From: Branchiostoma floridae
Lineage: Eukaryota; Chordata; Leptocardii; Amphioxiformes; Branchiostomatidae
Direction: 5' to 3'
DNA: 64,000 nt
Assembly: GCF_000003815.2 (NCBI RefSeq)
Contig: NC_049981.1
Span: 12,977,304-13,041,303 of the forward strand
Positions 20,188 to 47,472 of the stretch are shown piece by piece. The notes beneath the pieces were generated by a model. The model searched no databases, was not told where the DNA came from, and saw only the letters and a program-made list of their open reading frames with translations. Every line of letters starts with the position of its first letter. Position 1 is the first letter of the stretch. A program made the position numbers and the translations under genes.

Positions 20188-21521
20188 GTGAGCCCCTCAT
20201 TTCTTGTTGTCTTGCTGTTATCTATGGAAAATGTACATATAGGACATATAGATATAGGCACTGCGAGCAGGCCCGCTATAAGCATGTTGCTGCGACGCGC
20301 TGTCGGGACGTACAACTGTGTTAGCGCACGTCATATTTTCAGCACGTAACCACGAAAGTAGTCGGTAAATCCGTGGGCATTTGTGGCTCGTTAAAGAAAT
20401 CAGAGTCGTGAATACCGTTAAAAGAAGTACTAGTATACAGTGCAAAGAGCGATCCATCTAATTGTTATATTCATAATTGCGAGCGCGATTAACGTTGAGT
20501 ACATTAGCAGGCGTAGAAAACATCAGCGAAGATCAACCAACTCAAGGTAGGTACAACTCGTGAGGGTTGTGAAGTCATATGTAAGTAATAGATATTCATT
20601 ATATAGGATATGAGGGATTGAATCACTAGGTTAAGTTTTGCGTTTCAGGTTGACAACATAAGCTGCAGTGCCGTCTTGTTACGGCAGGCGGCGCCACATG
20701 GCGACACTTTGCGATGAGAGCCGTTGCTCTAGAACAATGTTTGGCGTTCCAGAGAAAAATACATTCAAGCGGTGTCTCCGTTTGAATACCGTATAGTGGG
20801 GTGCTATCTCATTAATTCATTAGCAAAAGAAGATTTAGTTCTTCTTCTAAGGAAATAATGAGATAGAAGGTACAAGGAGGATATATCATATACTAGTAAC
20901 CCCATTAAAGGGTAACAGTTACTACTTGTATCTTATCTTCTAGTGCAATAATGAAATAGATAGTACGCTATCTCATTAATTCACTTGTAGAAGATTGAAT
21001 TGATTGACAAACGCGATAGAATACGTCTCCGTTTGTACAAATTGTTTTCACAGGTTTAGTTATGTTTAGTTATCTAAACCACCAGTACTAATATTTTCAA
21101 ATACAAACTTTGATACCACGAAAATTATATTCATTTGGTGTTAACGTTGTAATTTGAACGACCAATGCAGTTTTCATGCAGTTTTCGTAACAACTAGGAA
21201 TTCATCTTATTTGTAATGATCAAAGTCCATCCCAAAAAAGGAAAAGGGCTAAATGCAGTACGTTGAATAACTAAAAGACGTACACACTACTTCCAGGTCC
21301 ACAGACCCTTTTCTTTAAACGCGTGTAAAGGAATTCCCAAGGTTTTTTTGAAGATGTCATATTATCAGGATAAGGACACGTCGTATTTTGCTGGAGAAGT
21401 ACATCTCTGACCTACAGTAAATATAAGCCACTGGCAAGAGAATTATTGCGCACGTCGCTATATACTAGTAATCATACATACAAAGATCGTTGCAAGTTCC
21501 ACGAAATCCATCCAGCACTTA

Positions 21522-22770: not shown

Positions 22771-23179
22771 TTACTTGGAATGGACGTTTTTAGACCTGAA
22801 CGTTTGACACAATTCCTATTAGAGTCTTCATGTTTTTCTCCGTCTAAAACGAATAATTTCCACCGAACAGATTGTATACAATTACTTGTTATCCTACCAA
22901 AAATATTGAGACAATTAACCTTACAACTATCCATTAACCCGTAAACTAGTAACTTTCATTTCTTCAAACACTTGGTATTTCAATTTTGCCTGCGAACCTA
23001 ATTGATTGCCAAATTCTTCTTTTTTTCAATCTACCTATACTACATCAACTCAATTTATATAAAAACGAAATATCCACGATTTAGTTCAGGCATCAAAAAC
23101 TTTCAAATCGGAACGCCCCCTCCCTGCCGCCTAAATCTGTTCTAGAACCCCAACTCCAAACGTCACTCCTTAACGTCAG

Positions 23180-23365
23180 TGACGTCACGTCACAGTGGTA
23201 GCGCAACAAGAGTTGTAAACAGATCGTTGCAAGTGACCTTGAAGAGAGGACGTCGTCGTCGCATCTCTCAAGCATCGCCGCGATTTTTAGAGAAACCTCA
23301 ATAAAGATTTGATCTTTTCTAACCGTTCTTTTTACAGAGCAGTGTTCGAGACAACAGGGCGTCAG
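23180..23365 (+). promoter_or_regulatory. CRE block plus splice-bounded 28-nt segment, copy 3
   Basis: TGACGTCACG at 23180-23189 is an exact CRE palindrome. The 28-nt segment 23338-23365 follows TTCTAAC, a T-rich tract and ACAG, and precedes GTGAG. The segment length is the same in all three copies even though neighbouring bases differ. Confidence 0.4.
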
Positions 23366-24262
23366 GTGAGAGCCTCATTTCTGTTGTCTTGCTGTTATCT
23401 ATGGAAAATGTACATAGAGGACATATAGATATAGGCACTGCGAGCAGGCCCGCTATAAGCATGTTGCTGCGACGCGCTGTCGGGACGTACAACTGTGTTA
23501 GCGCACGTCACATTTTCCGCACGTAACCACGAAAGTTGTAGGTAAATCCGCGGGCATTTTTGGCTCGTTAAAGAAATCATAGTCGTGAACACCGTCAAAA
23601 AAGTATACAGTGCAAAGAGCGATCCATCTAACAGTGATATTCATAATTGCGAGCGCGACGAATGTTAAATCTCTTAGCAAGCGTAGAAAACAATAGCGAA
23701 GATCAACCAACTCAAGGTAGGTACAACTCGCGAGGGTGGTGAAGTCATATGTAAGTAATAAACATTCATTATATAGGATACCAGAGATTAAATCACTAGG
23801 TTAAGTTTTGCGTTTCAGGTCGACGACGTAAGCTGTAGTGCCGCCTTGTTACGGCAGGTGGCGCCACATGGCGACACTTTGCGCTGAGAGCCGTTGCTCT
23901 AGAGCAATGTTTTGGCGTTCCATAGAAAAATGCCGTAGGCGGACGAATCATCGATTCGTCAGTGTCTCAGTTTGAATGCCGCGTGGTGTACTAAAGGAGC
24001 GCTATCTAATTAATTCACTAGCAATAGAAGATTTAGTTCTTCCTCTAGTGAAATAATGAGATAGAAGGTACAAGGAGGATATTTCATATTATATGACCTC
24101 CTTAAAGGGTAACAGTTACTACTTGTATTTCATCTTCTGGTGAAATAATGAAATAGAAGTACGCTATCTCATTAATTCACTTGTAGAAGATTGAATTGAT
24201 TGACAAACGCGATAGATTGCGACTCCGTTTGTACCAATCGTTTTACAGGTTTAGTTTTGTTT

Positions 24263-26268
24263 TTATCACGCAAAAGAATGAGAGAGGAATCTAGTTTCAG
24301 ATACGCACACAGACAGTAGGATATGTGTAAATATGAAACATCCATATCATTATGATCGTATTACTAGTGGGCATTCTACTTTACAGTGTACACATTGAAA
24401 CAGAGATGCATGTGAATTTATCACCACCTTAATTGCAGTAATAGGTTGTAGAAAGAAGTACTAGGCCAAAGCAAGTAAATTTTGTGGATTTCTGATAACT
24501 TCGGGACAAAAAAAATTTTACCATTTAGCGATGGTAAACATATATAAAGACATGTAAAAATATGTCGTAAACGTCTATCAGTCATATGGCAAAACGTCAT
24601 AGTGTAATGAGTCACGTTGTCTTTGGTTTCCTGGTGGTATATCTGTGGAATGTGTTACACCAATCAATTTTTTACGTACATTTGATATTTAAAAAGTACT
24701 TAGAAACACAATCGCAAAGTCATTGCCGACTGGTATGAGATAGACGTTAAGCAAAGAAACGGACTTTTGTTCAGTTATTTGAGTCATTGCGATCGAGTGC
24801 TTAGGTCACAAAACATTCAGCCTGAAAGTGTTATCAAGAACCACCATTGTTAACTAATCAACGAACATTTTTTTTGATACGGTGAACCTCTGTATTTCAT
24901 TTCTTTTACATATACACGTATCAAATGATAGTTTTTTACGCCCGTTTTTTCCGTGAAAGTATTATAAAGCTACCGGTTCGCAGAAACAGACGGATGAGCC
25001 TCGGTGTTGTTGTTGTTGTTGTTTTTGCCATAGAAATGCTCATCTTATTCTGTTAGATAAGTCTAATGCTCACACGAGTGTCACTGCAGCTGTGTTATTG
25101 AATACAGAAATAAAAGCCTTGTTGGTTGTGATACAATTCTATTGTCTCCAAACTTGAAAGTATGGTCATCTTGCTTTTTGCGCACTTTTTTTCGACCGCA
25201 CGCATTAAATTTGGAGCTTGCTGAAAGCGTCATCCGTAAAAATTACTTGCTGTGGCCTTATAGTTTCTCTTTTATTCAATCAAAAGAGAACGTATTTTGT
25301 GATATTGTAAAAACGTAAACCTGGAAGTCTAAATGCCTTATAATAACGTTTACTCTTGATTAGATATTTTGATGTACACACACTTGAATCATGTAACAGT
25401 TTTTATGTACACTTCCCTTTATGCTTTTTACACCATGTGTTGAAGGACTACAATACTGCTCATTGCTACACTGTACCCATGTACATCCATTGTGTATCTG
25501 AGTGTTCGTAGATATGTTAGAGAACGCGCAATTGCAAGTACTATGTTTTCTTCTCTCTTAATCTTCTTTGCCTTGTCCAGACGGAACTTGTAGTGGATTC
25601 GAATCAATCTAGACCTCGTGTATGATAAAACACTAAAAACGATTAATTTCTTTTTTCTATATCTTTACCCCTAAACCTGATATAAGAAAGGTCAGCCTTC
25701 ATATTAGGGTATAGATTTTAACTATTGATTGTTGTAAAATATTTTGTTGAAGAGCGTTTATTATCTAAATTCCGCACATCAACAGACAGCAGTTTGGGAA
25801 AGATTAAAGTCTTAGTTCTTATTCTGCGCCAAACTAGTATTGAATTAAGAATGAGTTGTCTTATCAGAGAGATCGGCACAGTCTTAAACAAATCATTGGG
25901 TGTACATTTCTTACCCATAAGACCGAGATGTTTTCACCAACTTAATGCTTGGGACAATTTCCAGCAAATCAGTGCTCGGGTTTGGTTATCATATTAAAGA
26001 TACCTTTTATGAGGCAATTTCCATCCAACGTACAAAGTCCATATCTCTAAAATAATGAGCTTATATGCTGAATTATGTCGATAACTAGCAAATAGTTAAC
26101 CTTAGTGTGAAGTTTCTGTTTCTAATCTTATTTCCAGTAAATAGTACTGAAGTTTACTCATATAAAAAGACCGGCAAGATTTTTTTTCAAATACTTACAA
26201 AAAAGGTACGGACGTTTCCCGTCATGAAAGTTAGTCGATACAACAACGTTCAATCATTCCCATCTAAA
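24263..26268. other. About 2 kb of DNA interrupting unit B
   Basis: This sequence is absent from the corresponding position of unit A, so it was inserted into B or lost from A. I see no terminal repeats, no recognisable protein and no clear target duplication. It contains a short GTT microsatellite near 25006-25022 and is otherwise AT-rich. Confidence 0.45.
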
Positions 26269-26900: not shown

Positions 26901-28854
26901 AATCGTGGCAACCAACATCTCTTGACTTGTGCTTAAGTTTTGTAACGTATGAAGCAAAGACTACAAACTGTATTTCCCGCCTACAGTCAGTACATATACG
27001 TTTTCATTGATGAAAAGAACATGAATTAACTACAAGAAGTTTTCTAATCAAAGAGTGGACAAATATCCATCAGCCCTTGTTGCAATTTGAATAAATAAAT
27101 AAATAAATGAATAAATAAATAAATATCCATCACAATAGAATTAGCCGGTGAGTGCAGCTATTTGACCAACGTTAACATTTTCGTGACGTTTTTATCAATT
27201 TATTCACAAATACATTTATTGGTAATCTTGTCGTGGATAAGACATTTGGCTTTCTTGATACGTATTAAGTACTGGGGTTTTCTCGGAGTTTTTTTTTTTT
27301 AATCATTGTATCAAAAGACATAAAGAAACAAATACAAATACATTCAGCCTAGCACGTTCCCAGGATATGATATCTAACTACTGGTTATGTTACATTTAAA
27401 CATTATCTAATAATTTGCTAAACATGCTCTCCTCCTGAAACTACCTATGGGATCGGTGAAATTAATTCTCTTGTAAAGGGGCAAGGTAAATGGAGTTGAA
27501 CGTTTGACATCATATTTTGGACAATAATAATCTCCGCAGCACGTGTATGACAGTGCCTTTCCGGACTTTCCTGGATACAAACAGGAACAATAGATGAAAA
27601 CTATGTTTCCATTTAACATGTATAACAAAAATGTCACCATTGTATTATAAATGAAATAATATTAATAATATTCTGCGTATTTTAGGCCACTCTAGGACAA
27701 GTTTGTGTGCGCGAACGACCTAGCAAAATTTCCCCTATAAGATTGGTATTCTCCACTTAAACATTATAACTGCTGATCTTTCCCAAAATACAATAGCCAT
27801 ACACAAAACAACCGCAAGACAACGTTTTCATGACCCTGTATGCAAACAGACGTACCAACACTGCGCGAAAAGCCGAATTTCCAGGGGATACATTTCTTTA
27901 CACATACCTGGAAATCTTAAAACCCCTTTAGAAATGCAATCAACAAACCATCTCTAGTGAAAACAAATCGTTATTTTGCGAAGGTGTCAATCTTTGTGAT
28001 TAGAAGTCTTTTGCTTGTCTTCCCATCCTCACACACCCTCTCCCTTTTCTCTGCATGTGTGCAAATGTTTGTGTTGGTACTTGAAATATTTCTTATGAAA
28101 AGGCAATCGTCGTCGGTGCCATGTCACATAACCACAACATTTGGTTGACTATGAGGGGCATGGTCAGTCCCCTTCCCCTGCAACATATATGGATCAGTTT
28201 ATTCCGTATACTGCCCATTACAAACATATCATGTACGCTTTGGGGAAAACGGAAAGATATAGAAACAGTCGTACAGTAGGGAAATCTCTCCTATTCCGTC
28301 ACCTCTTTTCAACTTAGTGCCACTCACCTCACTAGAGACTTATGTGTACCTGCAGTATTAAAGCCACTGGGTCGTGACGTTGGTGTTGTACCAGAGACAA
28401 CCGCCAGGGAGCGTTATCTATCAACATCAGGATCAAGATCAACATCACCATGTCTTCCTACACCAACCGTGACACTGATCCACCCTAGCTGTAGATTAGG
28501 TCTGTCTAGAAAACTAACTTTCTCTTTTCATCAAGTAAAATGGTAATTCAAATTTGCATTTGAATACGTGATGCAATGCGCTTGGTGGAAATTAAAAAAT
28601 CCTTTCCTACAAATTGTATTCATCTTACTGCCGAGAAAGAAGTAATCATTTTCCCTCCCTCTCCGAAGGACAACGTCGCGTCGTTAGAGGCAGCTTTGCA
28701 ATTTGGCAGACTTCGGCCATCCTCGTCAATCCCCGCCAACCACCATCACCGACGAGAGCCGAGTTCCTTCCTCCGATGCAAGCAAAGACTGTTTAATGTA
28801 GTTTATGTATAGATTGCTAAGTTGTTGTAAAAATTTACAAAAATCACAATAAAA
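26901..28854. other. Gene-free region upstream of the giant ORF
   Basis: AT-rich DNA with an AAAT microsatellite at 27089-27124. Short ORFs at 27957-28148 and 28576-28812 have no recognisable domain. The promoter and 5' UTR of the giant ORF probably lie here or in an unseen upstream exon. I see no clear TATA box. Confidence 0.4.
27089..27124. repeat. AAAT microsatellite
   Basis: Nine tetranucleotide units of the AATA type with a single interruption (AATG). Confidence 0.9.
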
Positions 28855-31800
28855 ATGAACACAGTAGAAGATAAGTTAGAAGTTAGTGCTAGTAGTGCTA
28901 GCAGTAGTGCTGGGCTAGGTCCCACACTTAGCATTGCGCGTCCCTCCCCTGCGCAGTCAAACACCGATGTATCAAAATATGCAGAGGAACTGATCAAGGA
29001 CCCAACAGTCCTCCGCAGTGCGACTAGCATCAGCAAGATGTTCAAAGGTGGCTCCAAAAACAACGTCACCACCATTTTTGCGAAAAACCTAATCGAATCC
29101 GCCACTTCAGACCTGCAGATTGAAATCGAATCTTGCTCGTCTATGTCGAGCGGCAGCTGTGAGTCAGGTGTGGACATGATGGACTCTGTTCTCAATATAA
29201 CCGGACTCATCCAAGCCGAGAAGAACCGAATCAAGGGCGAGTGCTCAAGGGAAGACCTCGGTCTCCTCTCACAGATCACGAAGTTTAAGCCGATCTCTCG
29301 CGAAACGACCGAGACCCACCAGAGGGGGAGCACACACGAGCTCGTGCACAGCCGCGACTCCAAGGGTGCAACAACAGAGCATCTCCACAAAAGCCAGTCG
29401 ATAACTACGATGGCCGATGTGAGACAGGGGAAGATCCGAACAGCATCTGGGAAGACGCTTCGGATCAGATGCTCCAAGACGAACGAAATCCTCCGCCAGA
29501 AGATGATTTATAACGCCAGACAGGAGTTGGCGCCTCCGAAAAAGAAGAAGTTCAAAACGATCGCTAAGGCGGTCGCCTGGACCGTTAGAAACAGATTGGC
29601 GTTCATGAAGGGCGATGTCCCCAAAACTAAGGAACAGGAGGACGAGGAGAAGATACAGAAACTGGCAAAGATATTCACCACAAACGTCATCAAAGGCGCA
29701 GTCAAGAAGTATGAATTGGAAGAAAGGCAGGAGGCCATAAGACAAGAAAGGCGCCGTCGAGCCAACCGCAGAAAATTCACAACCACCCCAAACTTCTTTG
29801 GCGAGCTGGAGTACTTTCCTGACCCTAGGCCGTGGGTTAAGAAGTTCGATAAGAACCACAACCCGAACAACAAGGCGCTGACATACTGGGTCCGAGAGAT
29901 CCAAAGGCAGGAAAAGGAGCACGAGTTAGGCCCGCCTCCACCCGGCCTGGACCTGCCCTGCAGCAACCTCTCCCTAAGGCACTCCAAACACTCTGACCTC
30001 AAGTTGGCGTGTCATGCGGAGACCGAAGAGGACGAATCTTCCATCTTCAGCAGTGGGCGAAAGAATTCAAGCATCTACTTCGCAGGCATCACTAAGATTG
30101 GTGACTCAGACGATCCTCAAATCCACGAAGAAGATAAGCTTGGTATGGCTGTTGGAGGGGCACCAGCTAAGAAAGAGGCACCTGGCGCAAGCCCCACACT
30201 TGAGCCCCTACTGAAGCCCTCGGAAAAGACAAACTCCCCGCAAACAGGAAACGCGAGCAAGCCAGATTATCTTGGCGGGAAATCTGGCGGCTCTAACATC
30301 ACCCGAGAGGCAAAGGGAGCTGGTATGACAGGGCTCTTCCCGGCAAACGATGTCCCCTCCGGAAAGAAGTCTCCTAAATCAGGCGGAACCCTTAAGGTAA
30401 AGGACGACAAGAAAAAAGGTGTAATGAGTTCTGTCCAGAAGGACCAGGGTAGTGAGATGTCCCCTGTGCTCACTAATGAGACACGTACACAAGCCAGGAA
30501 TTCCTCAAGCCTGGACGCAGAAGCTCTCGGCTCGTCCACTGTTGATGAGCCCGTGCCCATCTGGACAAAGGCCCCTAAGGAGAAAAAGTCGTGGACCACT
30601 CAAGACAAACCACGAGACATGACCGACCCTAGAGTCGATGCCCCTTATATGTTGCGCTCTTTGACCGAAGTCCGGCCAGATAAAAGCGTGGAAGAGATGG
30701 AAGAGCCTCCCCTTGCACCAAGAAGTTCCGAGTGCCTCATTAAGGGCATGGAAGGCCTGGCGTCTTCATCTGGGTCCTCTGGGGGGACAACTTGGACAGA
30801 GCCTGCCCAAACCAAGCAATGTGCTAGAGTCAGACCCACGGCTGTGGCAGACTCAGTTGTACCCTACGGTGCAGAGGCCAGAGTCAAGATAGCCGTTCAG
30901 AGAATAACGGTTTCCGTGACTGAGGAACTGATGGCGAACAATCGTTCCCTCCGCATTCTGAACCGCGCTGTCTCGATCATCAACCCCGTGGTGGTAGCGA
31001 CAGAGGCAGAGCTCTTTAACCCAACACTTCTTGGCGAACTGGTCCATCAAGTTAACCAGACGTACAGCACGATGGAGGCAGCCACACTGGGGCTTACAAT
31101 GTTCTTTGTTGAAATCTTGTCGGGTGTCCTGGCAAGAGCAGCAAACTTGATGCCTCTCATAGGCGCCACAGAAGAAGGCGGCCTGCCCGTACTCCCCTCA
31201 AACGCTCCTGTCGACAAGACAGACACGGCAGCGTCGACTGGAAACCGCCTGTTGGCGATCAGAGTGTCCCCACCGTCCTCTGTGTCTGGCGTGGATGATC
31301 AAAACGCTACAGACGCACAGCCACGCAGTGAAAGGCAGAAGACCAAACTGTCCAAGGGACGTTATCCAGTCCGGGAACAATCGCCAGGAATAAAGAATGT
31401 GATGCCGACAGCTTGTATGCCACGAAAAGCAAGCATTCCCTGTATGAAAAGAGACCCATTAAGGCCCCACACTGCGGCGGAGAGTGGAAAGTCAGAGAAG
31501 CCAGGCAGCAAACAAGGGGCTAAGGTGAAGTCTGCCAAAAAAGGCTCTCCTCCAAAGTTACAGAAATCTGACGGGCATGAAGAGCCAGAAGGCACAATCT
31601 GGAAAGTGCCAGACCGTAGAAGGCGCTCTAGTCTCCACCCAGAAGTGGTCGAAGACCTAAAGAACACGCTCCAACATCGCGGGGAAGATCGTCAGGAAAA
31701 GAAACAGACCCTGCACTTCACCTCTCAGTCGAGTGCCATGTCACAGAAGAGCACTGTGACCAAATACGGGAAAGGCAAGAAGAAAGACACNNNNNNNNNN

Positions 31801-34800
31801 NNNNNNNNNNNNNNNNNNNNNNNNNNNNNNNNNNNNNNNNNNNNNNNNNNNNNNNNNNNNNNNNNNNNNNNNNNNNNNNNNNNNNNNNNNNNNNNNNNNN
31901 NNNNNNNNNNNNNNNNNNNNNNNNNNNNNNNNNNNNNNNNNNNNNNNNNNNNNNNNNNNNNNNNNNNNNNNNNNNNNNNNNNNNNNNNNNNNNNNNNNNN
32001 NNNNNNNNNNNNNNNNNNNNNNNNNNNNNNNNNNNNNNCACCGCCGGAAGCTCCCCCTCTTCCTCCCCCTGACTACTATCTGTCGGGCGGCGACAAGTCG
32101 GACGACGAGACACCGAAGGCACAGGCACTGCCGCAGGAGGCTGCAATGGTGTACGTTCCGCCGCAGTTCTTGGCTCGGTTTCAGAGCAAGGAATTCAGAC
32201 ACGTAGAGTTCCACCCCTCCCCACGAAGCAGCGTCACCAGCAGTGTGGCGGGAAGTGATGTCGGCAGTGTACAGTCCTCCCGCGCAACTTCGCCCACAGG
32301 CACCCCTCGAAGCTCTAGTCCTGTTGGCAGGGACCACACAAGCCAAGGGGTCCAAAGCACGGCCCTTGCATCAGCCTTGCGTGATGCTGCAGAGAGCAGG
32401 GACACAGCACATGGCATGATGCAAACTCAAAGGGACAGTCTTGCCTTCCGACTGCAGTCCCAGGGGACGCAGCTGAAGCACTCCACCACCGTGAGGAGAA
32501 AGACGTCTACAGGGGAGACGGAAGACACGGCCGAGGCATCACACATGGTCGCCACAGTTCAGGCCGACAGAATCCCGTCACCGCCGCCCCTGCCGTCCTT
32601 TGGCCTGGGTTTATTATCTGCACACCCAGTGTCGGCCATGTCTCCTCTATCACCGGTGCCCGGGCATATGCAGTCTGGCTCACCTGGAAATGACAGCTTG
32701 TCCTTCCGGCTTCAGTCCCAGGCAACCAAGCTGAAACACTCCACCACTGTGAGGAGGAAGACGTGCACAGGGGAGACTGATGATACAGCAGAGGCATCGC
32801 AAGTGGTCGCGGCTGTCCAGGCTGAGCGTATCCCGACGCCGCCGCTACCGGCTTTTGGTCTCAGTGCACATGCACAGATAACGCCACCGGCTGCACTGGC
32901 AATTCCCAGTTCTGCACCAACTATGGGTCTGCTGTCACACCACCCTACTGCATCAGGCTTGCCTATGCCACAGCTTAGTGGAATGACTCGTCCCGGCCTT
33001 ACTGGAGGCACAGCCATGCGCCATACATCTGCGTCAGCCAAGGTGACACAAAAGACGAGCGTCAAAAAGGGTGACGAAACTGTGGAAAACGTCGCAGAAG
33101 CCAGCCAAGCCATGGCAACTACGGAAGTTGTGCAGATCCCTCCGCCGCCGCCGCTCCCAACTCCGGAACTGCTGAGACGGCCAAGTCTTCCACGAGCCAC
33201 GCCACACCTGATGATGCATGGGGCAGGATTCGGACGAGTCCCCTCGCCACCGGCTTTACCGCCTATGGACCTACTGATGGCCGGAATATCAGGTGGATTT
33301 GGACGAGTCCCCTCGCCCCCGGCTTTACCGCCTATGGACCTACTGATAGCCGGAATATCAGGTGGATTCGGACGAGTCCCCTCGCCCCCGGCTTTGCCGC
33401 CAATGGAGCTATTGATGGCCGGAATCTCAGGTGGTTTCGGACGGCCTCAGCCAAACATGGCTCTACAGTTAGCAGGACCATCGGCTCTGTCAGTGCCTCA
33501 GCCCTCACTTTTGTCCCATGGCCATGGACAAGGCGGTGGTACTTTTATGCGGAGCACTACTGCTTCCAACAAAATGACGCACAAGACTAAGGTCACAAAG
33601 GGCGATGAAACGGTAGAAAATGTGGCAGAGGCCAGCGAAACCGTTGGTACAATAGAGGTTGGCCATATCCCTGAACCGCCACCACTCCCAACGCCAGAGC
33701 AGCTAAGGCGTCCAAGTCTTCTACCTGCGGCGCCACAGCTTAACATGGCACTACAAATGGCAGGTTCTTCGGCTCTAGCAACCCCTCAGTACCCGCCTTC
33801 TTTGATATATCCAGGCCATGGACACAGCGGTGGTACTTTTATGAGGAGCACTACTGCTTCCAACAAAATGACGCACAAGACTAAGGTCGCAAAGGGAGAT
33901 GAAACGGTAGAAAATGTGGCAGAGGCCAGCAAAACCGTGGGTACAATGGAGTTTGGCCATATCCCTGAGCCGCCACCACTCCCAACCCCAGAGCAGCTGA
34001 GGCGGCCAAGTCTTCCACGAGCCACGCCACACCTGATGATGCATGGGGCAGGATTCGGACGAGTCCCCTCGCCACCGGCTTTACCGCCTATGGACCTACT
34101 GATGGCCGGAATATCAGGTGGATTCGGACGAGTCCCCTCGCCCCCGGCTTTACCGCCTATGGACCTACTGATGGCCGGAATATCAGGTGGATTCGGACGA
34201 GTCCCCTCGCCCCCGGCTTTGCCGCCAATGGAGCTATTGATGGCCGGAATCTCAGGTGGTTTCGGACGGCCTCAGCCAAACATGGCTCTACAGTTAGCAG
34301 GACCATCGGCTCTGTCAGTGCCTCAGCCCTCACTTTTGTCCCATGGCCATGGACAAGGCGGTGGTACTTTTATGAGGAGCACTACTGCTTCCAACAAAAT
34401 GACGCACAAGACTAAGGTCACAAAGGGCGATGAAATGATAGAAAATGTGGCAGAGGCCAGCGAAACCGTTGGTACAATAGAGGTTGGCCATATCCCTGAA
34501 CCGCCACCACTCCCAACGCCAGAGCAGCTGAGGCGGCCAAGTCTTCCACCTGCGGCACCACAGCTTAACATGGCGCTACAAATGGCAGGTTCTTCGGCTC
34601 TAGCAACCCCTCAGTACCCGCCTTCTTTGATGTCTCCAGGCCATGGACACGGCGGTGGTACTTTTATGCGGAGCACTACTGCTTCCAACAAAATGACGCA
34701 CAAGACTAAGGTCACGAAGGGAGATGAAACGGTAGAAAATGTGGCAGAGGCCAGCGAAACCGTGGGTACAATGGAGTTTGGCCATATCCCTGAGCCGCCA

Positions 34801-37800
34801 CCACTCCCAACCCCAGAGCAGCTGAGGCGCCCAAGTCTTCCACAAGCCACGCCAAACCTAATGATGCATGGGGCAGGATTCGGACGAGTCCCCTCGCCCC
34901 CGGCTTTACCGCCTATGGACCTACTGATGGCCGGAATATCAGGTGGATTCGGACGAGTCCCCTCGCCCCCGGCTTTACCGCCTATGGACCTACTGATGGC
35001 CGGAATATCAGGTGGATTCGGACGAGTCCCCTCGCCCCCGGCTTTACCGCCTATGGACCTACTGATGGCCGGAATATCAGGTGGATTCGGACGAGTCCCC
35101 TCGCCCCCGGCTTTACCGCCTATGGACCTACTGATGGCCGGAATATCAGGTGGATTCGGACGAGTCCCCTCGCCACCGGCTTTACCGCCTATGGACCTAC
35201 TGATGGCCGGAATATCAGGTGGATTCGGACGAGTCCCCTCGCCCCCGGCTTTGCCGCCAATGGAGCTATTGATGGCCGGAATCTCAGGTGGTTTCGGACG
35301 GCCTCAGCCAAACATGGCTCTACAGTTAGCAGGACCATCGGCTCTGTCAGTGCCTCAGCCCTCACTTTTGTCCCATGGCCATGGACAAGGCGGTGGTACT
35401 TTTATGAGGAGCACTACTGCTTCCAACAAAATGACGCACAAGACTAAGGTCACAAAGGGCGATGAAATGATAGAAAATGTGGCAGAGGCCAGCGAAACCG
35501 TTGGTACAATAGAGGTTGGCCATATCCCTGAACCGCCACCACTCCCAACGCCAGAGCAGCTGAGGCGGCCAAGTCTTCCACCTGCGGCACCACAGCTTAA
35601 CATGGCGCTACAAATGGCAGGACCTTCGGCTCTAGCAACCCCTCAGTACCCGCCTTCTTTGATGTCTCCAGGCCAGGGACAAGGTGGTGGTACGTTTATG
35701 AGGAGTACTACTGCTTCCAACAAAATGACGCACAAGACTAGGGTCACAAAGGGAGATGAATCAGTAGAAAATGTGGCAGAGGCCAGCGAGACCGTGGGTA
35801 CAATGGAATTTGGCCATATCCCTGAGCCGCCACCGCTCCCAACCCCAGAGCAGCTGAGGCGCCCAAGTCTTTCACGAGCCACACCACACCTAATGATGCA
35901 TGGGGCAGGATTCGAACGAGTCCCTTCGCCCCCGGCTTTGCCGCCTATGGAGCTACTACTGTCCGGAATAGCAGATATATCCGGACGGGTTCCGTCTCCT
36001 CCTGCGCTGCCGTCGATGGAGTTTCTGATGTCTGAAATCAGATATACATCTAGACAAGTCCCCAATCCTCCTGCTTTACCAACAATGGAGTTTCTGATGT
36101 CCGGAATCTCAGGATTCCCGGAGCGAGATGCCTCCCAGGCGTCGCCGCGGCCACTTTTGGATCTGGTCGGCTCCGGGGCCATGCAGCCGGTACCAGATCC
36201 AAACCGACAGTACACCGTCATGTCAATGTACGCCGCGCAGGAATCCACCTTGTCTCAGAAGAGAACCGTCACCCATCGTGACGAGGGCACAGAACACAGC
36301 ACGGCAGAGGAGTTCAGCATCGGGACAAAAGCAGCCGTGCTGCACACTAACATCCCGGAACCCCCTCTACTGCCAATGCTTAAGTATTTTGTCCAAAAGC
36401 CTTATGACCATCCCCAGGACACATTTGAACACCAGATAACACAGACAGTAGACAGGTTCTTCCGTCGAAGGGAATTGTCCATAAAGCTCCATCAGGACAA
36501 AGAGGATGTCACAGAATTTCTCCTCGGGCTCGAAGAAGACAAGTCACAGATTTCGTCGGAGAAACTCGAGGAGGTGAGAGCAGAGGCAAATGAAGAGCTT
36601 GCGACAATCAACGCCAGTATCTCCAATCTGCTGATGACGACATCATTAAGGAATGTGGTCGAAAACTCAGGGTCCCAGTGCTCTGAAGAATCACTAGAAC
36701 CAGGCGTGGTAGTGTCGGCTGATGACTACCAGACGGCTACAGAGTGGATAAAATCGGACAGTAAATTGACCATGAATCTGGAACGCCCATCCTTGCATGA
36801 GCTGCAAGGGGCAGAACAACACCAACTCTCACTTTGTAACCACACTGACCACGGTGAAAGCGCTTGGTACCAGTGCGACAACAACTACCAGGTTGTGCAT
36901 GGGGAGGATACCCCCTGCTGCATGATAGACCACGCCCACCACTGGACGTACGAGCCCACCAGATTCAAGTGCGGGAGTTGCAACGAGCCCCTGCTTATAA
37001 AATACCATATAGAAACTGACAGTGAGGATGACGACGAGAAGGACGAGGGGCATAAAAAAGTCCCCGTGCCTATATGCAACACCAAAAAGCACGGCCATGA
37101 GCATACATGGACGTACCGCACCATAAGAATGACATGCAAACAATGTCACGTGACGATGGTGATGAAAATGCACCTAGAAAGTGACGACGAAGATGAAGTA
37201 CCCGTTGAGAGGTCGGTTCCAATCCATCATAGGGCACCGCGGAAAGATCCCCGCACCCACACCCGTAGGATAAAGTCCCGTTCGGAAGACAGCGCCTCAC
37301 AGATTCCGCTGGTCCGGAAACCAAGTCAAACCAGCGAAAGGAAGTATCCGTACAGACAGCCAGGCAAGAAAGCCTATTCCAGCGGCAAAGAAAGGCCCTC
37401 ACGGAGCCTGCCCAAACCAAAGATTGTCGTGACTCCAGAGATGCGGCCTCAGTCTGCGTCTGAGACGGAGTTGGCATCAGGAATGGCGAAGGATCAGTCG
37501 TCCAAGACCCAGGGTCGGACTTCCCTGAAAAACGTGTACATACAGACAGCAGGTGGTTCAACAAGTCCACCTGGATCTGTGGCTGGAAAAACTGGCAAGC
37601 AGTCAGCGAAGGGCTCGGCTGAGCCCGCAGCTAAAACACAGAAGGACACTGTGAAGGGCGGCAAGGCGGGTATGAGGCGCAAAGAGAATTCCAAGAAAGT
37701 TTGGGATGCCCTTGTTGGCGACGACAATGAAAGTGGAAGCTCCAAGGCGCAAGCCACCCCGTCCAAGTATGCTAAAAAGCCTGATTCAGCATCTAAGGAT

Positions 37801-40800
37801 GCTGCAGCAAAGAGGTCTGGTCCGAAAGCTTTCACTAAAAAGGACATGTCATCCAAATTAAAGGGGTCACAAGAAGCAGGAGCCTCGGGCACTCCTAAGA
37901 AGGTCGTGGTAACGTCCAAGGACTTACCTTCTAAACCCACAAGTAAAGTAGCAAGTGCATCGAGCACCACCAAATCTTCACCACCTTCTAAGGAAGCAAA
38001 TCTTCCAGTCACAGGTCTGGACAGATCTGGACAGACAAAAGAGTCCACACAAGACAAGAAAGAAAAGCCAAGTCTTGGGGCTTCACAAAAAGGAGCAAAC
38101 GTGCCGAAAGCTGGACCGTCCGGAGACCAGACCGCAAAATCAGCGCCTACGAAAATCTCGCAAGCGACAAAAGGCGTAGATGTTAAGGGGGAAACTCCCA
38201 TTATGAGGACTACTGCACTGTCGCCAAGGCATGCAGACATGCAATCAACGGACAAGAAGTCTCTCAAAGAAACAGCGCCTTTGCTCTCGAAAATTCCACG
38301 ACCGGTTCAAGACACGACTGTTAAACGAAAAGATCCCACGATGGGGACAACAGCATTGTCACCAAGGCGCACAGGCATACAGGCAACAGACAAACCTGTC
38401 AAACAGACCTCACTATTGCCTACGAAGATTCCGCAACCATCTCAAGGCACTGCTGTTAGGCGGAAAGTTCCCACGATGGGGACAGAAGCATTGTCACCAA
38501 GGTGCACAGACATACAGGCAACAGACAAATCTGTCAAACAGACCTCACTATCCCCGATGAAGATTCAACAACCGTCTAAAGACACTACTGTTAAGCGGAA
38601 CACCCCCGTGATGGACAGGACTCCAGTGTCACAAAGGCACACAGGAGCGTCTCAAGGAGTCCCAGCCAAATCTGAGCCCATGAAGACTGTACAGTCAGCC
38701 AAGGACTCTGCCGACAGGCCAAGGACTCCCCGTATGGAGTCGACTGCACAGACGGCTGGACCGCCAATGGTCCAGACCAGACCTACAGCAGAACCTCCAA
38801 ACGCTGAACAATCCTCCGAGCCAGACACTCCTGAGCATCAGCGTCCATACGGCTGGGTGTCGTCGGGGATAAAGAAGTATAATGATGTGGAAAGGGCACG
38901 GCTGGATGCGGAGGTTAACCACTACTGGGGTACCAAGTTCTCCAGAGATAGGGAAAAGCCATGGTGGAATATTGAGGATCCAGAAGAACGTGAGAGAGCA
39001 CGGCTTCGCCAGGACCGGTCTCAGACAAACATCCGGCGGGCCGAATCGTCAGGCAGGGAGCCCGGTGCAACCTCTGCCTCCTACAAGCCACCTGACATCG
39101 AGAAACAAGTGACCTATGATGTCGACCGATCACCGGCGATGTTACCCGGTCACTTCGGGGCGTCAACAGGCGTCCGGTCCAGACCGAGCATGCCGGGCAC
39201 GGGCTTAGTACCGAAGAAACTGGACATGGAAGTCTTCGACTCGTCAGAAGACAGCGAAGATGAGGTAGACTTGGACAAACCCGTCTCAGCGGAGGATCTG
39301 AAAGATGACAAGTATTGGCAAGCCTTGGAGAAGAAGGCGTACACCATGGTGAAGAAAAGTATGGAACAACTGGAGACTGTAGAGGAGGGCTCTGCCGAGG
39401 ACGAGACACCAGTGCAGGAAGCTTCTTCCACAGTGAAGAAACCTTCCAAGTTCTCTGAAATGTTCCAGTCAAGGAAAGAAAAGGAGAGGAAAAGAGAGAG
39501 AGAGGCCAGAGAAAGGGCCATGGAGGAAGCGAGAAAGGTGGAAGAGACGTTCCCGCACAAGTCAGACACCCCGACCGAAAAACCGTTCTATGGTCCACCG
39601 CTTCCCCCGGAGATGCAGAAAAATACTCCGGAGAAGAAGAAAAAGGACTTGACAAAAAATGGACACCAGGGAAAGCCTACGCTGGCTGCTAGTAAAGCAA
39701 AAGAGGAAGAACCAACCAAATCTGAGCCCATGAAGACTGTACAGTCAGCCAAGGACTATGCCGACAGGCCAAGGACTCCCCGTATGGAGTCGACTACACA
39801 GACGGCTGGACCGCCAATGGTCCAGACCAGACCTACAGCAGAACCTCCAAACGCTGAACAATCCTCCGAGCCAGACACTCCTGAGCATCGGCGTCCATAC
39901 GGCTGGGTGTCATCGGGGATAAAGAAGTATAATGATGACCAAAGGGCACGGCTGGATGCGGAGGTTAACTACTACTGGGGTACCAAGTTCTCCAGAGATC
40001 GTGAAAAGCCATGGTGGAATATTGAGGATCCAGAAGAACGTGAGAGAGCACGGCTTCGCCAGGACCGGTCTCAGACAAACATCCGGCAGACCGGATCGTC
40101 AGGCAGGGAGCCCGGTGCAACCTCTGCCTCCTACAATCCACCTTGCTTCGAGAAACAAGTGACCTATGATGTCGACCGATCACCGGCGATGTTACCCGGT
40201 CACTTCGGGGCGTCAACGGGCGTTCGGTCCAGACCGAGCATGCCGGACACGGGCTTAGTACCGAAGAAACTAGACATGGAAGTCTTTGACTCGTCAGAAG
40301 ACAGCGAAGATGAGATAGACTTGGACAAACCCGTCTCAGCGGAGGATCTGAAAGATGACGAGTATTGGCAAGCCTTGGAGAAGAAGGCGTACGCCATGGT
40401 GAAGAAAAGTATGGAACAACTGGAGACTGTAGAGGAGGGCTCTGCCAAGGACGAGACACCAGTGCAGGAAGCTTCTTCCACAGTGAAGAAACCTTCCAAG
40501 TTCTCTGAAATGTTCCAGTCAAGGAAAGATAAGGAGAGGAAAAGAGAGAGAGAGGCCAGAGAAAGGGCCATGGAGGAGGCAGGAAAGGGGGAAGAGACGT
40601 TCCCGCACAAGTCAGACCCCCCGACCGCAAAACCGTTCTATGGTCCACCGCTTCCCCCAGAGATGCAGAAAAATACTCCGGAGAAGAAGAAAAAGGACTT
40701 GACAAGCCATGGGCACCAGGGGAGGCCTACGCTGGCTGCTAGTAAAGCAAAAGAAGAAGAACCAAGCACTTCTAAGAAATCTGGCGGCACACTCACCCCA

Positions 40801-40911
40801 ACTAAGCTTGTCCGCAAAATGAAGGTTGGCGTCAATAAGGTCAAAAATTCGATTGAATCTAAGCTATCAGGAGAAGAGAGCGACTCAATGTCGAATGATT
40901 TGTCGACATAA
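28855..40911 (+). CDS. Giant intronless ORF, about 4,018 residues, repetitive low-complexity protein of unknown function
   Basis: I do not recognise this protein. One frame stays open for 12,057 bases from ATG 28855 to TAA 40909-40911, across a 248-base run of N (residues about 979-1061). It is hydrophilic, with no signal peptide or membrane segment. In order: a Ser-rich N-terminus; a basic, charged, probably helical segment with AIRQERRRRANRRKF (about 225-350); a predicted folded hydrophobic region around VSIINPVVVATEAELF (about 665-775); Pro-rich repeats with recurring IPxPPPLP (about 1180-2440); a His/Cys-rich doublet (about 2660-2782); Lys/Ser/Thr-rich disorder; and a 350-residue tandem duplication (about 3272-3970) with acidic SEDSEDE and coiled-coil-like KEKERKREREARERAMEEA. 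The length and codon-level preservation of repeats indicate real coding sequence. A scaffold or cytoskeletal role, as for AHNAK-like giants, is only a guess. A shadow of repeat structure can be excluded because the non-repetitive parts are also open. Confidence 0.85.
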   Translation: MNTVEDKLEVSASSASSSAGLGPTLSIARPSPAQSNTDVSKYAEELIKDPTVLRSATSISKMFKGGSKNNVTTIFAKNLIESATSDLQIEIESCSSMSSGSCESGVDMMDSVLNITGLIQAEKNRIKGECSREDLGLLSQITKFKPISRETTETHQRGSTHELVHSRDSKGATTEHLHKSQSITTMADVRQGKIRTASGKTLRIRCSKTNEILRQKMIYNARQELAPPKKKKFKTIAKAVAWTVRNRLAFMKGDVPKTKEQEDEEKIQKLAKIFTTNVIKGAVKKYELEERQEAIRQERRRRANRRKFTTTPNFFGELEYFPDPRPWVKKFDKNHNPNNKALTYWVREIQRQEKEHELGPPPPGLDLPCSNLSLRHSKHSDLKLACHAETEEDESSIFSSGRKNSSIYFAGITKIGDSDDPQIHEEDKLGMAVGGAPAKKEAPGASPTLEPLLKPSEKTNSPQTGNASKPDYLGGKSGGSNITREAKGAGMTGLFPANDVPSGKKSPKSGGTLKVKDDKKKGVMSSVQKDQGSEMSPVLTNETRTQARNSSSLDAEALGSSTVDEPVPIWTKAPKEKKSWTTQDKPRDMTDPRVDAPYMLRSLTEVRPDKSVEEMEEPPLAPRSSECLIKGMEGLASSSGSSGGTTWTEPAQTKQCARVRPTAVADSVVPYGAEARVKIAVQRITVSVTEELMANNRSLRILNRAVSIINPVVVATEAELFNPTLLGELVHQVNQTYSTMEAATLGLTMFFVEILSGVLARAANLMPLIGATEEGGLPVLPSNAPVDKTDTAASTGNRLLAIRVSPPSSVSGVDDQNATDAQPRSERQKTKLSKGRYPVREQSPGIKNVMPTACMPRKASIPCMKRDPLRPHTAAESGKSEKPGSKQGAKVKSAKKGSPPKLQKSDGHEEPEGTIWKVPDRRRRSSLHPEVVEDLKNTLQHRGEDRQEKKQTLHFTSQSSAMSQKSTVTKYGKGKKKDXXXXXXXXXXXXXXXXXXXXXXXXXXXXXXXXXXXXXXXXXXXXXXXXXXXXXXXXXXXXXXXXXXXXXXXXXXXXXXXXXXXXPPEAPPLPPPDYYLSGGDKSDDETPKAQALPQEAAMVYVPPQFLARFQSKEFRHVEFHPSPRSSVTSSVAGSDVGSVQSSRATSPTGTPRSSSPVGRDHTSQGVQSTALASALRDAAESRDTAHGMMQTQRDSLAFRLQSQGTQLKHSTTVRRKTSTGETEDTAEASHMVATVQADRIPSPPPLPSFGLGLLSAHPVSAMSPLSPVPGHMQSGSPGNDSLSFRLQSQATKLKHSTTVRRKTCTGETDDTAEASQVVAAVQAERIPTPPLPAFGLSAHAQITPPAALAIPSSAPTMGLLSHHPTASGLPMPQLSGMTRPGLTGGTAMRHTSASAKVTQKTSVKKGDETVENVAEASQAMATTEVVQIPPPPPLPTPELLRRPSLPRATPHLMMHGAGFGRVPSPPALPPMDLLMAGISGGFGRVPSPPALPPMDLLIAGISGGFGRVPSPPALPPMELLMAGISGGFGRPQPNMALQLAGPSALSVPQPSLLSHGHGQGGGTFMRSTTASNKMTHKTKVTKGDETVENVAEASETVGTIEVGHIPEPPPLPTPEQLRRPSLLPAAPQLNMALQMAGSSALATPQYPPSLIYPGHGHSGGTFMRSTTASNKMTHKTKVAKGDETVENVAEASKTVGTMEFGHIPEPPPLPTPEQLRRPSLPRATPHLMMHGAGFGRVPSPPALPPMDLLMAGISGGFGRVPSPPALPPMDLLMAGISGGFGRVPSPPALPPMELLMAGISGGFGRPQPNMALQLAGPSALSVPQPSLLSHGHGQGGGTFMRSTTASNKMTHKTKVTKGDEMIENVAEASETVGTIEVGHIPEPPPLPTPEQLRRPSLPPAAPQLNMALQMAGSSALATPQYPPSLMSPGHGHGGGTFMRSTTASNKMTHKTKVTKGDETVENVAEASETVGTMEFGHIPEPPPLPTPEQLRRPSLPQATPNLMMHGAGFGRVPSPPALPPMDLLMAGISGGFGRVPSPPALPPMDLLMAGISGGFGRVPSPPALPPMDLLMAGISGGFGRVPSPPALPPMDLLMAGISGGFGRVPSPPALPPMDLLMAGISGGFGRVPSPPALPPMELLMAGISGGFGRPQPNMALQLAGPSALSVPQPSLLSHGHGQGGGTFMRSTTASNKMTHKTKVTKGDEMIENVAEASETVGTIEVGHIPEPPPLPTPEQLRRPSLPPAAPQLNMALQMAGPSALATPQYPPSLMSPGQGQGGGTFMRSTTASNKMTHKTRVTKGDESVENVAEASETVGTMEFGHIPEPPPLPTPEQLRRPSLSRATPHLMMHGAGFERVPSPPALPPMELLLSGIADISGRVPSPPALPSMEFLMSEIRYTSRQVPNPPALPTMEFLMSGISGFPERDASQASPRPLLDLVGSGAMQPVPDPNRQYTVMSMYAAQESTLSQKRTVTHRDEGTEHSTAEEFSIGTKAAVLHTNIPEPPLLPMLKYFVQKPYDHPQDTFEHQITQTVDRFFRRRELSIKLHQDKEDVTEFLLGLEEDKSQISSEKLEEVRAEANEELATINASISNLLMTTSLRNVVENSGSQCSEESLEPGVVVSADDYQTATEWIKSDSKLTMNLERPSLHELQGAEQHQLSLCNHTDHGESAWYQCDNNYQVVHGEDTPCCMIDHAHHWTYEPTRFKCGSCNEPLLIKYHIETDSEDDDEKDEGHKKVPVPICNTKKHGHEHTWTYRTIRMTCKQCHVTMVMKMHLESDDEDEVPVERSVPIHHRAPRKDPRTHTRRIKSRSEDSASQIPLVRKPSQTSERKYPYRQPGKKAYSSGKERPSRSLPKPKIVVTPEMRPQSASETELASGMAKDQSSKTQGRTSLKNVYIQTAGGSTSPPGSVAGKTGKQSAKGSAEPAAKTQKDTVKGGKAGMRRKENSKKVWDALVGDDNESGSSKAQATPSKYAKKPDSASKDAAAKRSGPKAFTKKDMSSKLKGSQEAGASGTPKKVVVTSKDLPSKPTSKVASASSTTKSSPPSKEANLPVTGLDRSGQTKESTQDKKEKPSLGASQKGANVPKAGPSGDQTAKSAPTKISQATKGVDVKGETPIMRTTALSPRHADMQSTDKKSLKETAPLLSKIPRPVQDTTVKRKDPTMGTTALSPRRTGIQATDKPVKQTSLLPTKIPQPSQGTAVRRKVPTMGTEALSPRCTDIQATDKSVKQTSLSPMKIQQPSKDTTVKRNTPVMDRTPVSQRHTGASQGVPAKSEPMKTVQSAKDSADRPRTPRMESTAQTAGPPMVQTRPTAEPPNAEQSSEPDTPEHQRPYGWVSSGIKKYNDVERARLDAEVNHYWGTKFSRDREKPWWNIEDPEERERARLRQDRSQTNIRRAESSGREPGATSASYKPPDIEKQVTYDVDRSPAMLPGHFGASTGVRSRPSMPGTGLVPKKLDMEVFDSSEDSEDEVDLDKPVSAEDLKDDKYWQALEKKAYTMVKKSMEQLETVEEGSAEDETPVQEASSTVKKPSKFSEMFQSRKEKERKREREARERAMEEARKVEETFPHKSDTPTEKPFYGPPLPPEMQKNTPEKKKKDLTKNGHQGKPTLAASKAKEEEPTKSEPMKTVQSAKDYADRPRTPRMESTTQTAGPPMVQTRPTAEPPNAEQSSEPDTPEHRRPYGWVSSGIKKYNDDQRARLDAEVNYYWGTKFSRDREKPWWNIEDPEERERARLRQDRSQTNIRQTGSSGREPGATSASYNPPCFEKQVTYDVDRSPAMLPGHFGASTGVRSRPSMPDTGLVPKKLDMEVFDSSEDSEDEIDLDKPVSAEDLKDDEYWQALEKKAYAMVKKSMEQLETVEEGSAKDETPVQEASSTVKKPSKFSEMFQSRKDKERKREREARERAMEEAGKGEETFPHKSDPPTAKPFYGPPLPPEMQKNTPEKKKKDLTSHGHQGRPTLAASKAKEEEPSTSKKSGGTLTPTKLVRKMKVGVNKVKNSIESKLSGEESDSMSNDLST
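31791..32038. other. Assembly gap (248 N) inside the giant ORF
   Basis: The run of N starts after GKKKD codons and ends before PPEAPPLPPPDYY. The frame is the same on both sides if the gap length is exact. It probably marks unresolved repeat sequence, so the protein length is approximate. Confidence 0.95.
33226..35907 (+). repeat. Nested coding tandem repeats: 69-bp units inside 825-bp units
   Basis: The 69-bp (23-residue) unit with core GRVPSPPALPPM and tail LLMAGISG occurs three times from 33226, three times from 34051 and six times from 34876. A degenerate set of three follows from 35908. Each block is followed by two NKMTHKTKVTKGDE modules, making an 825-bp higher-order unit (275 codons). 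The third is 1032 bp because it has three extra 69-bp units. Copies are nearly identical at nucleotide level. Confidence 0.95.
38200..38640 (+). repeat. 45-residue coding repeat, about four diverged copies
   Basis: Units share TALSPR and TDK followed by KIPQP and TVKRK. The CCCACGATGGGGACA start recurs at 38335 and 38470, a period of 135 bp. The units lie inside the giant ORF and are more diverged than the 69-bp and 1050-bp repeats. Confidence 0.8.
38671..40764 (+). repeat. 1050-bp tandem duplication (350 residues) in the giant ORF
   Basis: TCTGAGCCCATGAAGACTGT starts copy 1 at 38671 and copy 2 at 39721, exactly 1050 bp apart. The copies are nearly identical and stay in the same frame, including the RPYGWVSSGIKKYND, WGTKFSRDREKPWWNIEDP and KFSEMFQSRK segments. 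The near-identity implies recent duplication or ongoing gene conversion. Confidence 0.95.
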
Positions 40912-42720
40912 ATATATTATTGGCGTGGCAAAAAAATCTATGTGTTTGTTACTCACGTTTGATGTTTGGAATAGAATATCAGAAACACATTGAACATAAA
41001 AAAATGAAAGCGATGCATACTTGAAGCCACGATGAAAAAGGAAAATGAAGGAATCAAGTGCATCTTAGGTCGCAAAGACCTTATAGCAACTGCGCAGCAA
41101 GGGGACCCAATTTAAGCAGTTTCTGTTAAGTCAAATAACAATTGGTTGCCAGGCATAGATATATGCATGTACGATGGTAGTATCTAGTGTTGTAAAGCTG
41201 TGTATGCATTGGTCACACATGCTGTCAGTGTGAGAATTTCTTATATCGGCATTGAAAGGAAATGTACTAAGCACCGTTGTAAGTTGTAAATTGTATGTGA
41301 CTGACAAAAATGATACTAATGTTAACGTCTCTGCAACAGCATCAATGTCAATACACAACTTTAAATGGATTTTATGCTACATAGCTTCCTTCATGAATGT
41401 AAAATACTTGAGTCCACTACACCATGACTGAAGATAGTGTGTGTATACAATTCATGTATATATGTACAATATATGTGTGTCTGTCTTTGTAAATTGTAAA
41501 AAAAAAAGAGACAAATGTGTTATCAAGAATAAACATTCACGCCAATTTACAATTGCTTTTCTTACTGTTGGGTACGAATAGGCCCTGATCCTCTGGACCT
41601 GGACCTGGCCCATACCTGTACCAGTACCCACCCCTAGTTCAGTACAACACAACATGCTACTCTCAGGCCTTTGCTAAAACTACATATTGATAAGGGTCAA
41701 ATAAGAGTCCAACACCAAATAAAGCGTCTCTGCAATATATATTCAAATCAGCATTTTCAGCAACAAATTGTGAATGAAATACCCCATTGCCTCTATAGAG
41801 TCAGAGATTATAAGACGAGATATGATAAGTATATACTACACCATTACAACAGTATTAGTAGTACTTCATAGAAATGTGACGGGCGGGCTGCTATAATCGT
41901 GATTTAATTTTAAGCATGCTACATCGATAAACATCTAACATATTTAAACAAGGAAAACATGATTCCTTGTGATGGCTTTCCTGATGGGAAAACATTGACC
42001 TCTTCATGTCAAGGGTCATACATTGTGTATCTTACACCTTGTATAATTAGATTCTACTTCAAATACATTTACCACATCTTCTAGGCCACTACTATGTCCT
42101 CCGCAGTAAAAATTGGCTGTCAGGGTTCACCAAGTACATAATGTACAAGTCTATATCAGCAGCATCATTAAAAACCACGAAATACTCATTTCGGCTTAAG
42201 CCGTAACCATTTAACTTTCAGAGGCTTTTCAGCCTTGTTTTGCAGTCACTTTTGCCAAATAGTCGTTATCCAAGAAAATGGATATAATTTGGGAAATGAT
42301 GAGACATAGATAGTATCCACTTCCTTTTGCCAGTGACACTTAGCAGAAATGTTGCAGATCAGGTTTTGTAGTCTAACTATGAATTGATATGTAAAGGAGA
42401 TATGTAAGAGTTTGTCTTACTGTTGTACTATATAGTTAGAGTGTAAAACCTGCTCTGCAGCAGATCTGCCTAGTGTCACGGACAAAGGGTAGTGGATGTT
42501 ACCTGAAACATCTCACCATTTCCAAAACCATATCCAGTTGCTTGAGTAACTACTACTACTTGGCACATCCTATTACCTGCATGTCTAGCCTTCCTTGACG
42601 AGCTGTTCTTTAGCTTAAGATCTACAGTACTGAAAGTGAACTTCATAACACCTGTACACAGCAGAGGAATGTGGCCATTTCATGATCCTGTGTTCCTTCA
42701 AGGTAGCATACAGGGCCCTC
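40912..42720. other. Intergenic region between the convergent giant ORF and DHFR
   Basis: It holds the 3' UTR of the giant gene on the plus strand and that of DHFR on the minus strand. I see no further gene. TTTAAT at 41903-41908, which reads ATTAAA on the minus strand, is a weak candidate poly(A) signal for DHFR. Confidence 0.45.
41528..41533 (+). terminator. Candidate poly(A) signal of the giant ORF
   Basis: AATAAA lies about 615 bp after the stop codon, shortly after an A-rich run. It is the first convincing canonical signal on this strand after the giant ORF. Confidence 0.45.
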
Positions 42721-47120
<4,400 letters not shown>

Positions 47121-47472
47121 TCTGGTGCTGAGACCGTGAGTCCAGGAGGGAGTGAAAAGGAAATAGCGATGTCTTCAGGTGCAGCTAACGCGAAAAACAA
47201 CACATTTAAAAATGGCGGGAAAAGCCAGGTCACGTTTTGACCTTTCCCAGCACCCCATTGGCAAGCTTTGAGGTTGCAGAAGGGTTTATGAATTTTTTAC
47301 TTCTTTAATATCATGTTCCGTGCCTTTTGCCTGTTTGCCCCTGTGCTGCATTATATTACATTACCCATATTCTATCTTAGAGTATTTTTTCATAACCTTA
47401 TATGGTGTAAAGGTGTAAAGATCTGTGAAGTCTTTCTGTAAACTACTATACCCCATACATGGCCATACAAAA
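47121..47472. promoter_or_regulatory. Shared divergent promoter region of DHFR and TRAPPC5
   Basis: Only 352 bp separate the two start codons, which point away from each other. There is no TATA box. The segment holds two E2F-like motifs and must contain both transcription starts. This is the classic layout of a bidirectional housekeeping promoter. Confidence 0.7.
47189..47222. promoter_or_regulatory. Two E2F-like sites upstream of DHFR
   Basis: CGCGAAA at 47189-47195 and GGCGGGAAA at 47214-47222 match the two common forms of the E2F consensus (TTTSSCGC family, reverse strand). They lie 69-102 bp upstream of the DHFR start codon. DHFR is a textbook E2F target in vertebrates, activated at G1/S, so cell-cycle control is inferred here. 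Confidence 0.6.

Follow-up and report, generated by a model that had tools for sequence, protein, structure and literature searches.

A giant coding exon in amphioxus belongs to a five-member gene family that appears to have spread by DNA duplication and probably encodes a largely disordered protein

Proteins encoded by giant exons are uncommon. Animal genes such as FSIP2, CMYA5, MUC16 and titin contain single exons of some 10 kb and longer. AHNAK combines one giant exon with several small ones (PMC10682155). The ankyrin of Branchiostoma floridae itself is reported to lack a death domain and to have two long exons that are homologous, and the long exons of giant ankyrins to extend over thousands of bases, with size and repeat content that differ between species (PMC5135030). 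Here we analyze a locus of the same lancelet that invites comparison with each of these systems.

The locus lies in the window, by which we mean the whole 64-kb stretch of contig C3 that was analyzed. Positions 28855-40911 (+) form one frame of 4018 codons from ATG to TAA, which is probably the last, giant exon of a gene. The original prediction described a 12-kb uninterrupted ORF. The single ATG-to-stop frame is indeed present, but it contains a run of 248 N (31791-32038), either an assembly gap or a withheld stretch, which covers 82 codons fully and two partly, so that 3935 of the 4018 residues are read. At this position the frames of the four paralogues described below stay open, and at least two of them match the window copy in the length of this stretch.

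Several features of the sequence mark this frame as coding. The remaining five frames over the same sequence contain 59-165 stops, and the longest frame found in three frames of 200 mononucleotide shuffles of the giant ORF was at most 286 codons. GC content is 0.53 across the ORF versus 0.33-0.42 in the flanks nearby. With a codon-usage model trained on three other ORFs within the window, the giant frame ranks first in 52 of the 65 segments of 60 codons that were scored, a different frame being higher in 13. Taken with the paralogues, these sequence features indicate that the giant ORF is a real protein-coding gene. The setting had been described as one in which all neighboring exons measure 20-900 bp; this does not hold, as an LRR ORF reaches 1.4 kb and a carboxylesterase ORF 1.8 kb.

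A scan of the 513-Mb assembly (431 contigs) with residues 1-648 as query recovered the window copy plus four loci. One paralogue, C3b, lies on C3 at 1.5 Mb from the window copy, on the opposite strand; two others, C16m and C16p, lie about 17 kb apart in divergent orientation on C16, and the fifth family member is on C12. Queries of the genome with residues 2430-2800, and also with the tail, added none to these loci among the candidates that were scored. Measured from stop to stop, the paralogue frames comprise 3701 codons on C3, 2593 and 1411 on C16, and 3442 on C12. All four are single open frames with 0 N and 0 internal stops, and we therefore find a gene family rather than one odd ORF.

The integrity of these frames departs strongly from neutral expectation. 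Simulation under an assumed divergence of 0.03 or 0.13 per lineage predicts 11.5 stops in C3b, 31.5 in C16m, 15.6 in C16p and 39.8 in C12, and for none of the four paralogues was a stop-free copy obtained in 300 simulations. The dN/dS ratio among copies (NG86) lies between 0.108 and 0.613 for all 39 region pairs, which are not independent because the regions overlap, and for 38 of them its upper 95% bootstrap bound stays under 1. The original prediction had named a ratio near 1 between amphioxus species as what would speak against the gene; run on the paralogues within the genome, this test is one that the gene survives. Selection is tightest on residues 1-437, with a dN/dS of 0.12-0.20 when C3 and C16 copies are compared with one another and of 0.45-0.56 against C12, from which about half of this part has been lost. 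The internal Pro-rich repeats give 0.17-0.53 in 14 of 15 pairs (the remaining pair is identical), while the tail duplicate, at 0.69, is under weak constraint. Indels between the two C3 copies, counted from three blastn alignments, are multiples of three in five of six cases within the ORF, the sixth sitting on the start codon, and in 8 of 19 cases outside it. We note that in both C16 copies about the first 37 codons are duplicated, with the first ATG altered and the second intact. The locus had been singled out as the strongest candidate for an undescribed gene in the window, and four intact paralogues under purifying selection add to that claim; it is, however, no lone single-exon ORF but one of five.

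The C3 copies are 95% identical, and C3b might accordingly be a retained allele (haplotig), which would reduce the family to fewer than five members. Lancelets are highly heterozygous, and assemblies of such genomes may over-count duplicated regions (PMC12373286). The two copies nevertheless share one contig, 1.5 Mb apart and on opposite strands, with flanks that are common only in pieces of 77-95% identity. Moreover, the dS of the C12 and C16 copies to the window copy (0.20-0.38) is excessive for alleles. We consider a haplotig improbable and retain a family of five.

How the copies arose can be read from their surroundings. Homology between C3b and the window comes in pieces that span window positions 14251 to 47445 with 77-95% identity. 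These include part of DHFR, and the piece at 14251-14522, which alone has no Pfam match, overlaps an exon presumed by eye to belong to an ankyrin-repeat gene. In the 35.5 kb examined around C3b, the window neighbors align in pieces only and the giant frame is whole. Such shared pieces over 14251-47445 point to a segmental duplication. The C12 and C16 copies have the leader and the 3'UTR in common with the window copy, the homology of the copies continues about 40 nt beyond AATAAA, and a poly(A) tract is absent from the 3' ends of all four paralogues; together, these observations argue for DNA duplication and against retroposition. Descent of the five copies as retrogenes from a spliced parent mRNA would explain their lack of introns, and the C12 and C16 homology does fade close to the expected mRNA ends. 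Besides the 3' ends, however, the duplication of an upstream block together with the gene and the scattered pieces around C3b, part of DHFR included, stand against such an origin, as does the lack of an exon-split parent, each scored match falling within one of the five frames. We regard retroposition as highly improbable; instead, the copies look like the products of DNA duplication within the genome.

Other features of the window are recorded here in their own right. The ankyrin-repeat gene, which has a disordered tail, occupies 11884-15535 (+), and it is its 14251-14522 stretch that recurs near C3b. A weak tRNA-like match at 17555-17626 (+) scores 29.7 bits against a gathering threshold of 29; ARAGORN calls no tRNA there, so this is perhaps a tRNA-derived repeat. 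The DHFR exons at 42721-44447 (-), just part of which aligns near C3b, match Pfam DHFR_1 over the cut-off for 44265-44447 and under it for 42721-43149. A TRAPP subunit gene at 47419-48742 (+) matches Pfam TRAPP in two pieces. Further on, an antistasin-type domain (53594-54374, +) is followed after 0.2 kb by a Pro-rich frame (VPQLVPAGDAPQLIPAA...), and minisatellite-like frames of repeated units (58414-59027, -) are separated by 1.5 kb from a weak match to a pyridoxal-dependent decarboxylase that remains under the cut-off (60532-60813, E 1.7e-5).

Upstream of the giant frame, the window contains three versions of a family-specific block: copy 3 at 23010-24267 (+), copy 2 at 19826-21074 (+), which is 86% identical to copy 3, and a partial copy 1 at 18765-19053 (+). 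The 1258 bases of copy 3 have at least 15 matches in the genome; a search that scored the best candidates only returned 15, itself included, and every one of them is situated 5' of one of the five family members and on the gene's strand. The block carries a candidate 28-nt 5' exon with acceptor TTACAG and donor GTGAG at 23338-23365 (+), and also at 18887-18914 and 20160-20187. A pattern allowing a spacing of 27-37 nt matched this element 10 times in the window and the regions examined, always with 28 nt and in the gene's orientation. Thirteen of the 15 block matches span the element's spot, and the 11 that are readable all have the 28-nt spacing; the eleventh copy (C16:5342249-5342474) misses the pattern, with letters changed and spacing kept. 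It is the block search that confines the element to the family. Coding by the block itself was rejected: of 10 copies, 8 have the start of a frame (PFFLQ or PFCLQ) that stays open for 41-119 codons in each of the 8, but the copies shift frame after some 20 codons and the block is therefore not taken as coding.

In our reading, the 28-nt elements would be small 5' exons, either alternative or duplicated. An acceptor-28 nt-donor element within a family-specific block suggests that the giant frame is probably the last exon after small, predicted non-coding 5' exons, as in AHNAK. Rather than of an uninterrupted gene, one should speak of an uninterrupted giant coding exon, the N run apart.

Sequences on both sides of the frame are common to the family. 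The ATG is shared by all five copies and is preceded by a leader (28330-28854, +) that is conserved as DNA in five of five and that contains a 12-codon upstream ORF, MSSYTNRDTDPP, at 28450-28488 (+), likewise in all five and without an indel. The 3'UTR and downstream element (40912-41576, +) are homologous in the other copies and partly missing in C12, and the polyadenylation signal AATAAA (41528-41533, +) is found in every copy. A giant ankyrin gene, to which the frame might contribute a long exon, is suggested by the two homologous long exons reported for Branchiostoma ankyrin (PMC5135030). Conservation of the frame, however, starts at the ATG, non-triplet indels occur upstream of it, and the common polyadenylation signal follows. 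In addition, ZU5, with 41 matches, comes no closer than 0.43 Mb, where it is on the other strand, and on C16 and C12 the nearest ZU5 is more than 3 Mb and more than 5 Mb away, respectively. We find an ankyrin origin scarcely credible and continue with a gene that has its own start and end.

The protein begins with its most conserved region, the N-terminal 400 residues (28855-30054, +), which is basic from about residue 200 and has a net charge of +21 across residues 200-350. Amphipathic helices were not above those of shuffled sequence. A hydrophobic segment at residues about 670-770 (30862-31164, +) is present in four of five copies and absent from the short C16 copy, and residues 640-800 are the most hydrophobic among twelve regions compared. 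The claim that there is no membrane segment is thus to be qualified by one marginal hydrophobic stretch, residues 742-763, which passes Kyte-Doolittle 1.6.

The center of the protein, residues about 1192-2510 (32428-36384, +), is a repeat region with units of ~66 residues of the form K-T-x-V-x-K-G-D-E...AEAS...IPEPPPLP, which contain IPEPPPLPTPEQLRRPSLP. Seven strong copies, which were the repeat model's seeds, are joined by three diverged ones (1205, 1287, 2465). Placements of the model that start just before and end just after the N run score below zero and are, therefore, only suggestive. Within the region, 15 copies of the 23-residue unit VPSPPALPPMDLLMAGISGGFGR form arrays (33238-36126, +) that belong to higher-order repeats with spacings of 275 and 344 residues. 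The number of these units varies across the family, with 15 in the window copy, 9 in C3b, 7 in C16m, 5 in C16p and 16 in C12.

Two features of the C-terminal part that had been highlighted are present but lie outside the conserved core. The His/Cys doublet (C-x2-C twice; 36832-37179, +) occurs in two of five copies, solely those on C3. Its Cys/His pattern makes it a candidate zinc-ribbon; Pfam gave no match over the cut-off, and the AlphaFold pLDDT was 36. After a basic Lys/Ser/Pro-rich linker (37222-38664, +), with a net charge of +54 over residues 2790-3270, follows the duplicated tail. Its 350-residue unit 1 (38671-39720, +) and its unit 2 (39721-40758, +) are 93% identical over 350 columns; only the two C3 copies have both units, whereas C16m has a single tail and C12 a partial one. 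The shortest copy of the family still has the N-terminus and the arrays, together with a last stretch of which 67 residues can be aligned.

Composition (P 10.3%, S 10.1%) and charge-hydropathy, by which 62% of the protein's segments are predicted to be unfolded, are consistent with a largely disordered chain. AlphaFold was uninformative, with a mean pLDDT of 35.8 for residues 2430-2800 and 37.3 for residues 1-400. We note that a low pLDDT is neither proof nor exclusion of disorder.

The prediction that the protein has no nameable domain is borne out. Pfam searches with the whole protein, ten pieces and five N-termini gave none over the curated cut-off (best E 0.0098, for a short piece), and sequence queries of the PDB, for which the whole protein, four of its pieces and a profile were used, gave nothing or an E of at least 0.2. 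Seven pieces run against PHROGs produced one match, with an E of 0.059. Viral contigs queried with the N-terminal 400 residues, and prokaryote contigs queried with residues 2430-2800, yielded no relative, and of 25 and 23 pattern stretches, respectively, none was confirmed. A mobile element or viral gene was rejected on the same Pfam and PHROGs results and on the negative viral and prokaryote contigs, each covered with one piece. Nor was the family found in the literature searched. By "undescribed" we mean the lack of a relative in Pfam, PHROGs, PDB and that literature; public amphioxus annotations may well hold the gene as an uncharacterised protein.

We judge it probable, on balance, that the locus is the giant coding exon of a real gene in a five-member DNA-duplicated family, likely its last exon after small non-coding ones at the 5' end, and that the product of ~4000 residues would be a largely disordered intracellular protein acting as a scaffold or spacer. 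This reading leans on composition, repeats, variable array length and N-terminal constraint. In the cytoplasm, this giant and mostly disordered scaffold or spacer would be anchored by its conserved basic N-terminus. The Pro-rich arrays, with 5 to 16 of the 23-residue units per copy, would display many short ligands (PPPLP; LRRPSLP), and array length may tune reach or avidity. Phosphorylation of LRRPSLP, which we take to resemble a basophilic-kinase site and, when phosphorylated, a 14-3-3 site, could act as a switch.

Counts of short motifs bear on ligand display. Among 18 patterns tried in the non-repeat parts against block shuffles, and with some of the matches falling within diverged repeat copies, PPPLP occurs 2 times versus 0.01 expected, PPP 7 versus 2.0, PxxP 30 versus 21.5 and R-x-x-S/T-x-P 7 versus 2.7; RRxS is also above the shuffles, while EVH1, SH3 class II and LC8 motifs show no excess. 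The excess is weak evidence for ligand display. The same proline-rich arrangement could belong to an actin regulator, with an FH1-like proline stretch and tandem WH2-like units in which LMAGISGG is a degenerate WH2 helix. At the position of the window's N run, three paralogues have FTPPPPPPPLPG and C12 has FTPPPSPPSLPG, and units such as LMSEIRYTSRQV presumably resemble WH2 spacing. Pfam, however, reports no WH2, whether the whole protein (E up to 1) or an array piece (E up to 10) is queried, the loose WH2 core LL..I has one match in the whole protein, and the pattern L...LK[KR], for the LKK[TV] motif of WH2, has none. A role in actin regulation thus seems unlikely, and we return to the scaffold or spacer.

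Five intact, diverging copies in one genome amount to a natural experiment on a giant disordered protein, in which selection keeps the basic N-terminus while the His/Cys doublet, the tail duplicate and the repeat number come and go. The confinement of the upstream block to one family, within one genome search, opens a way to test how 5' exons around a giant exon originate. More tentatively, the family might be a cephalochordate-specific one in which each gene couples its own array of duplicated alternative 28-nt 5' mini-exons to a length-variable disordered array in a huge exon, with both copy numbers tuning the expression of what would be a novel class of cytoplasmic scaffold, and its reach; we offer this as a possibility rather than an expectation.

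Compared with the described giant-exon systems, the amphioxus protein may be set apart from FSIP2, CMYA5, MUC16 and titin by its lack of a Pfam match over the cut-off and of a PDB relative. With the giant ankyrins it shares a very long exon, but it has no ZU5 within 0.4 Mb and brings its own start and polyadenylation signal. It is also like AHNAK and AHNAK2, where nearly the whole protein comes from one giant exon and contains long internal repeats. The amphioxus repeats, in contrast, consist of Pro-rich units that are 23 and about 66 residues long, and the gene exists in five genomic copies. Small 5' exons are predicted for it from conserved splice sites. No Pfam match to PDZ was found in the amphioxus protein (E up to 1 for the whole, up to 10 for pieces), and by this test it is therefore not AHNAK by descent. 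In sum, the amphioxus protein is, by the PDZ test, no member of the AHNAK family in descent and would resemble AHNAK in its presumed way of working.
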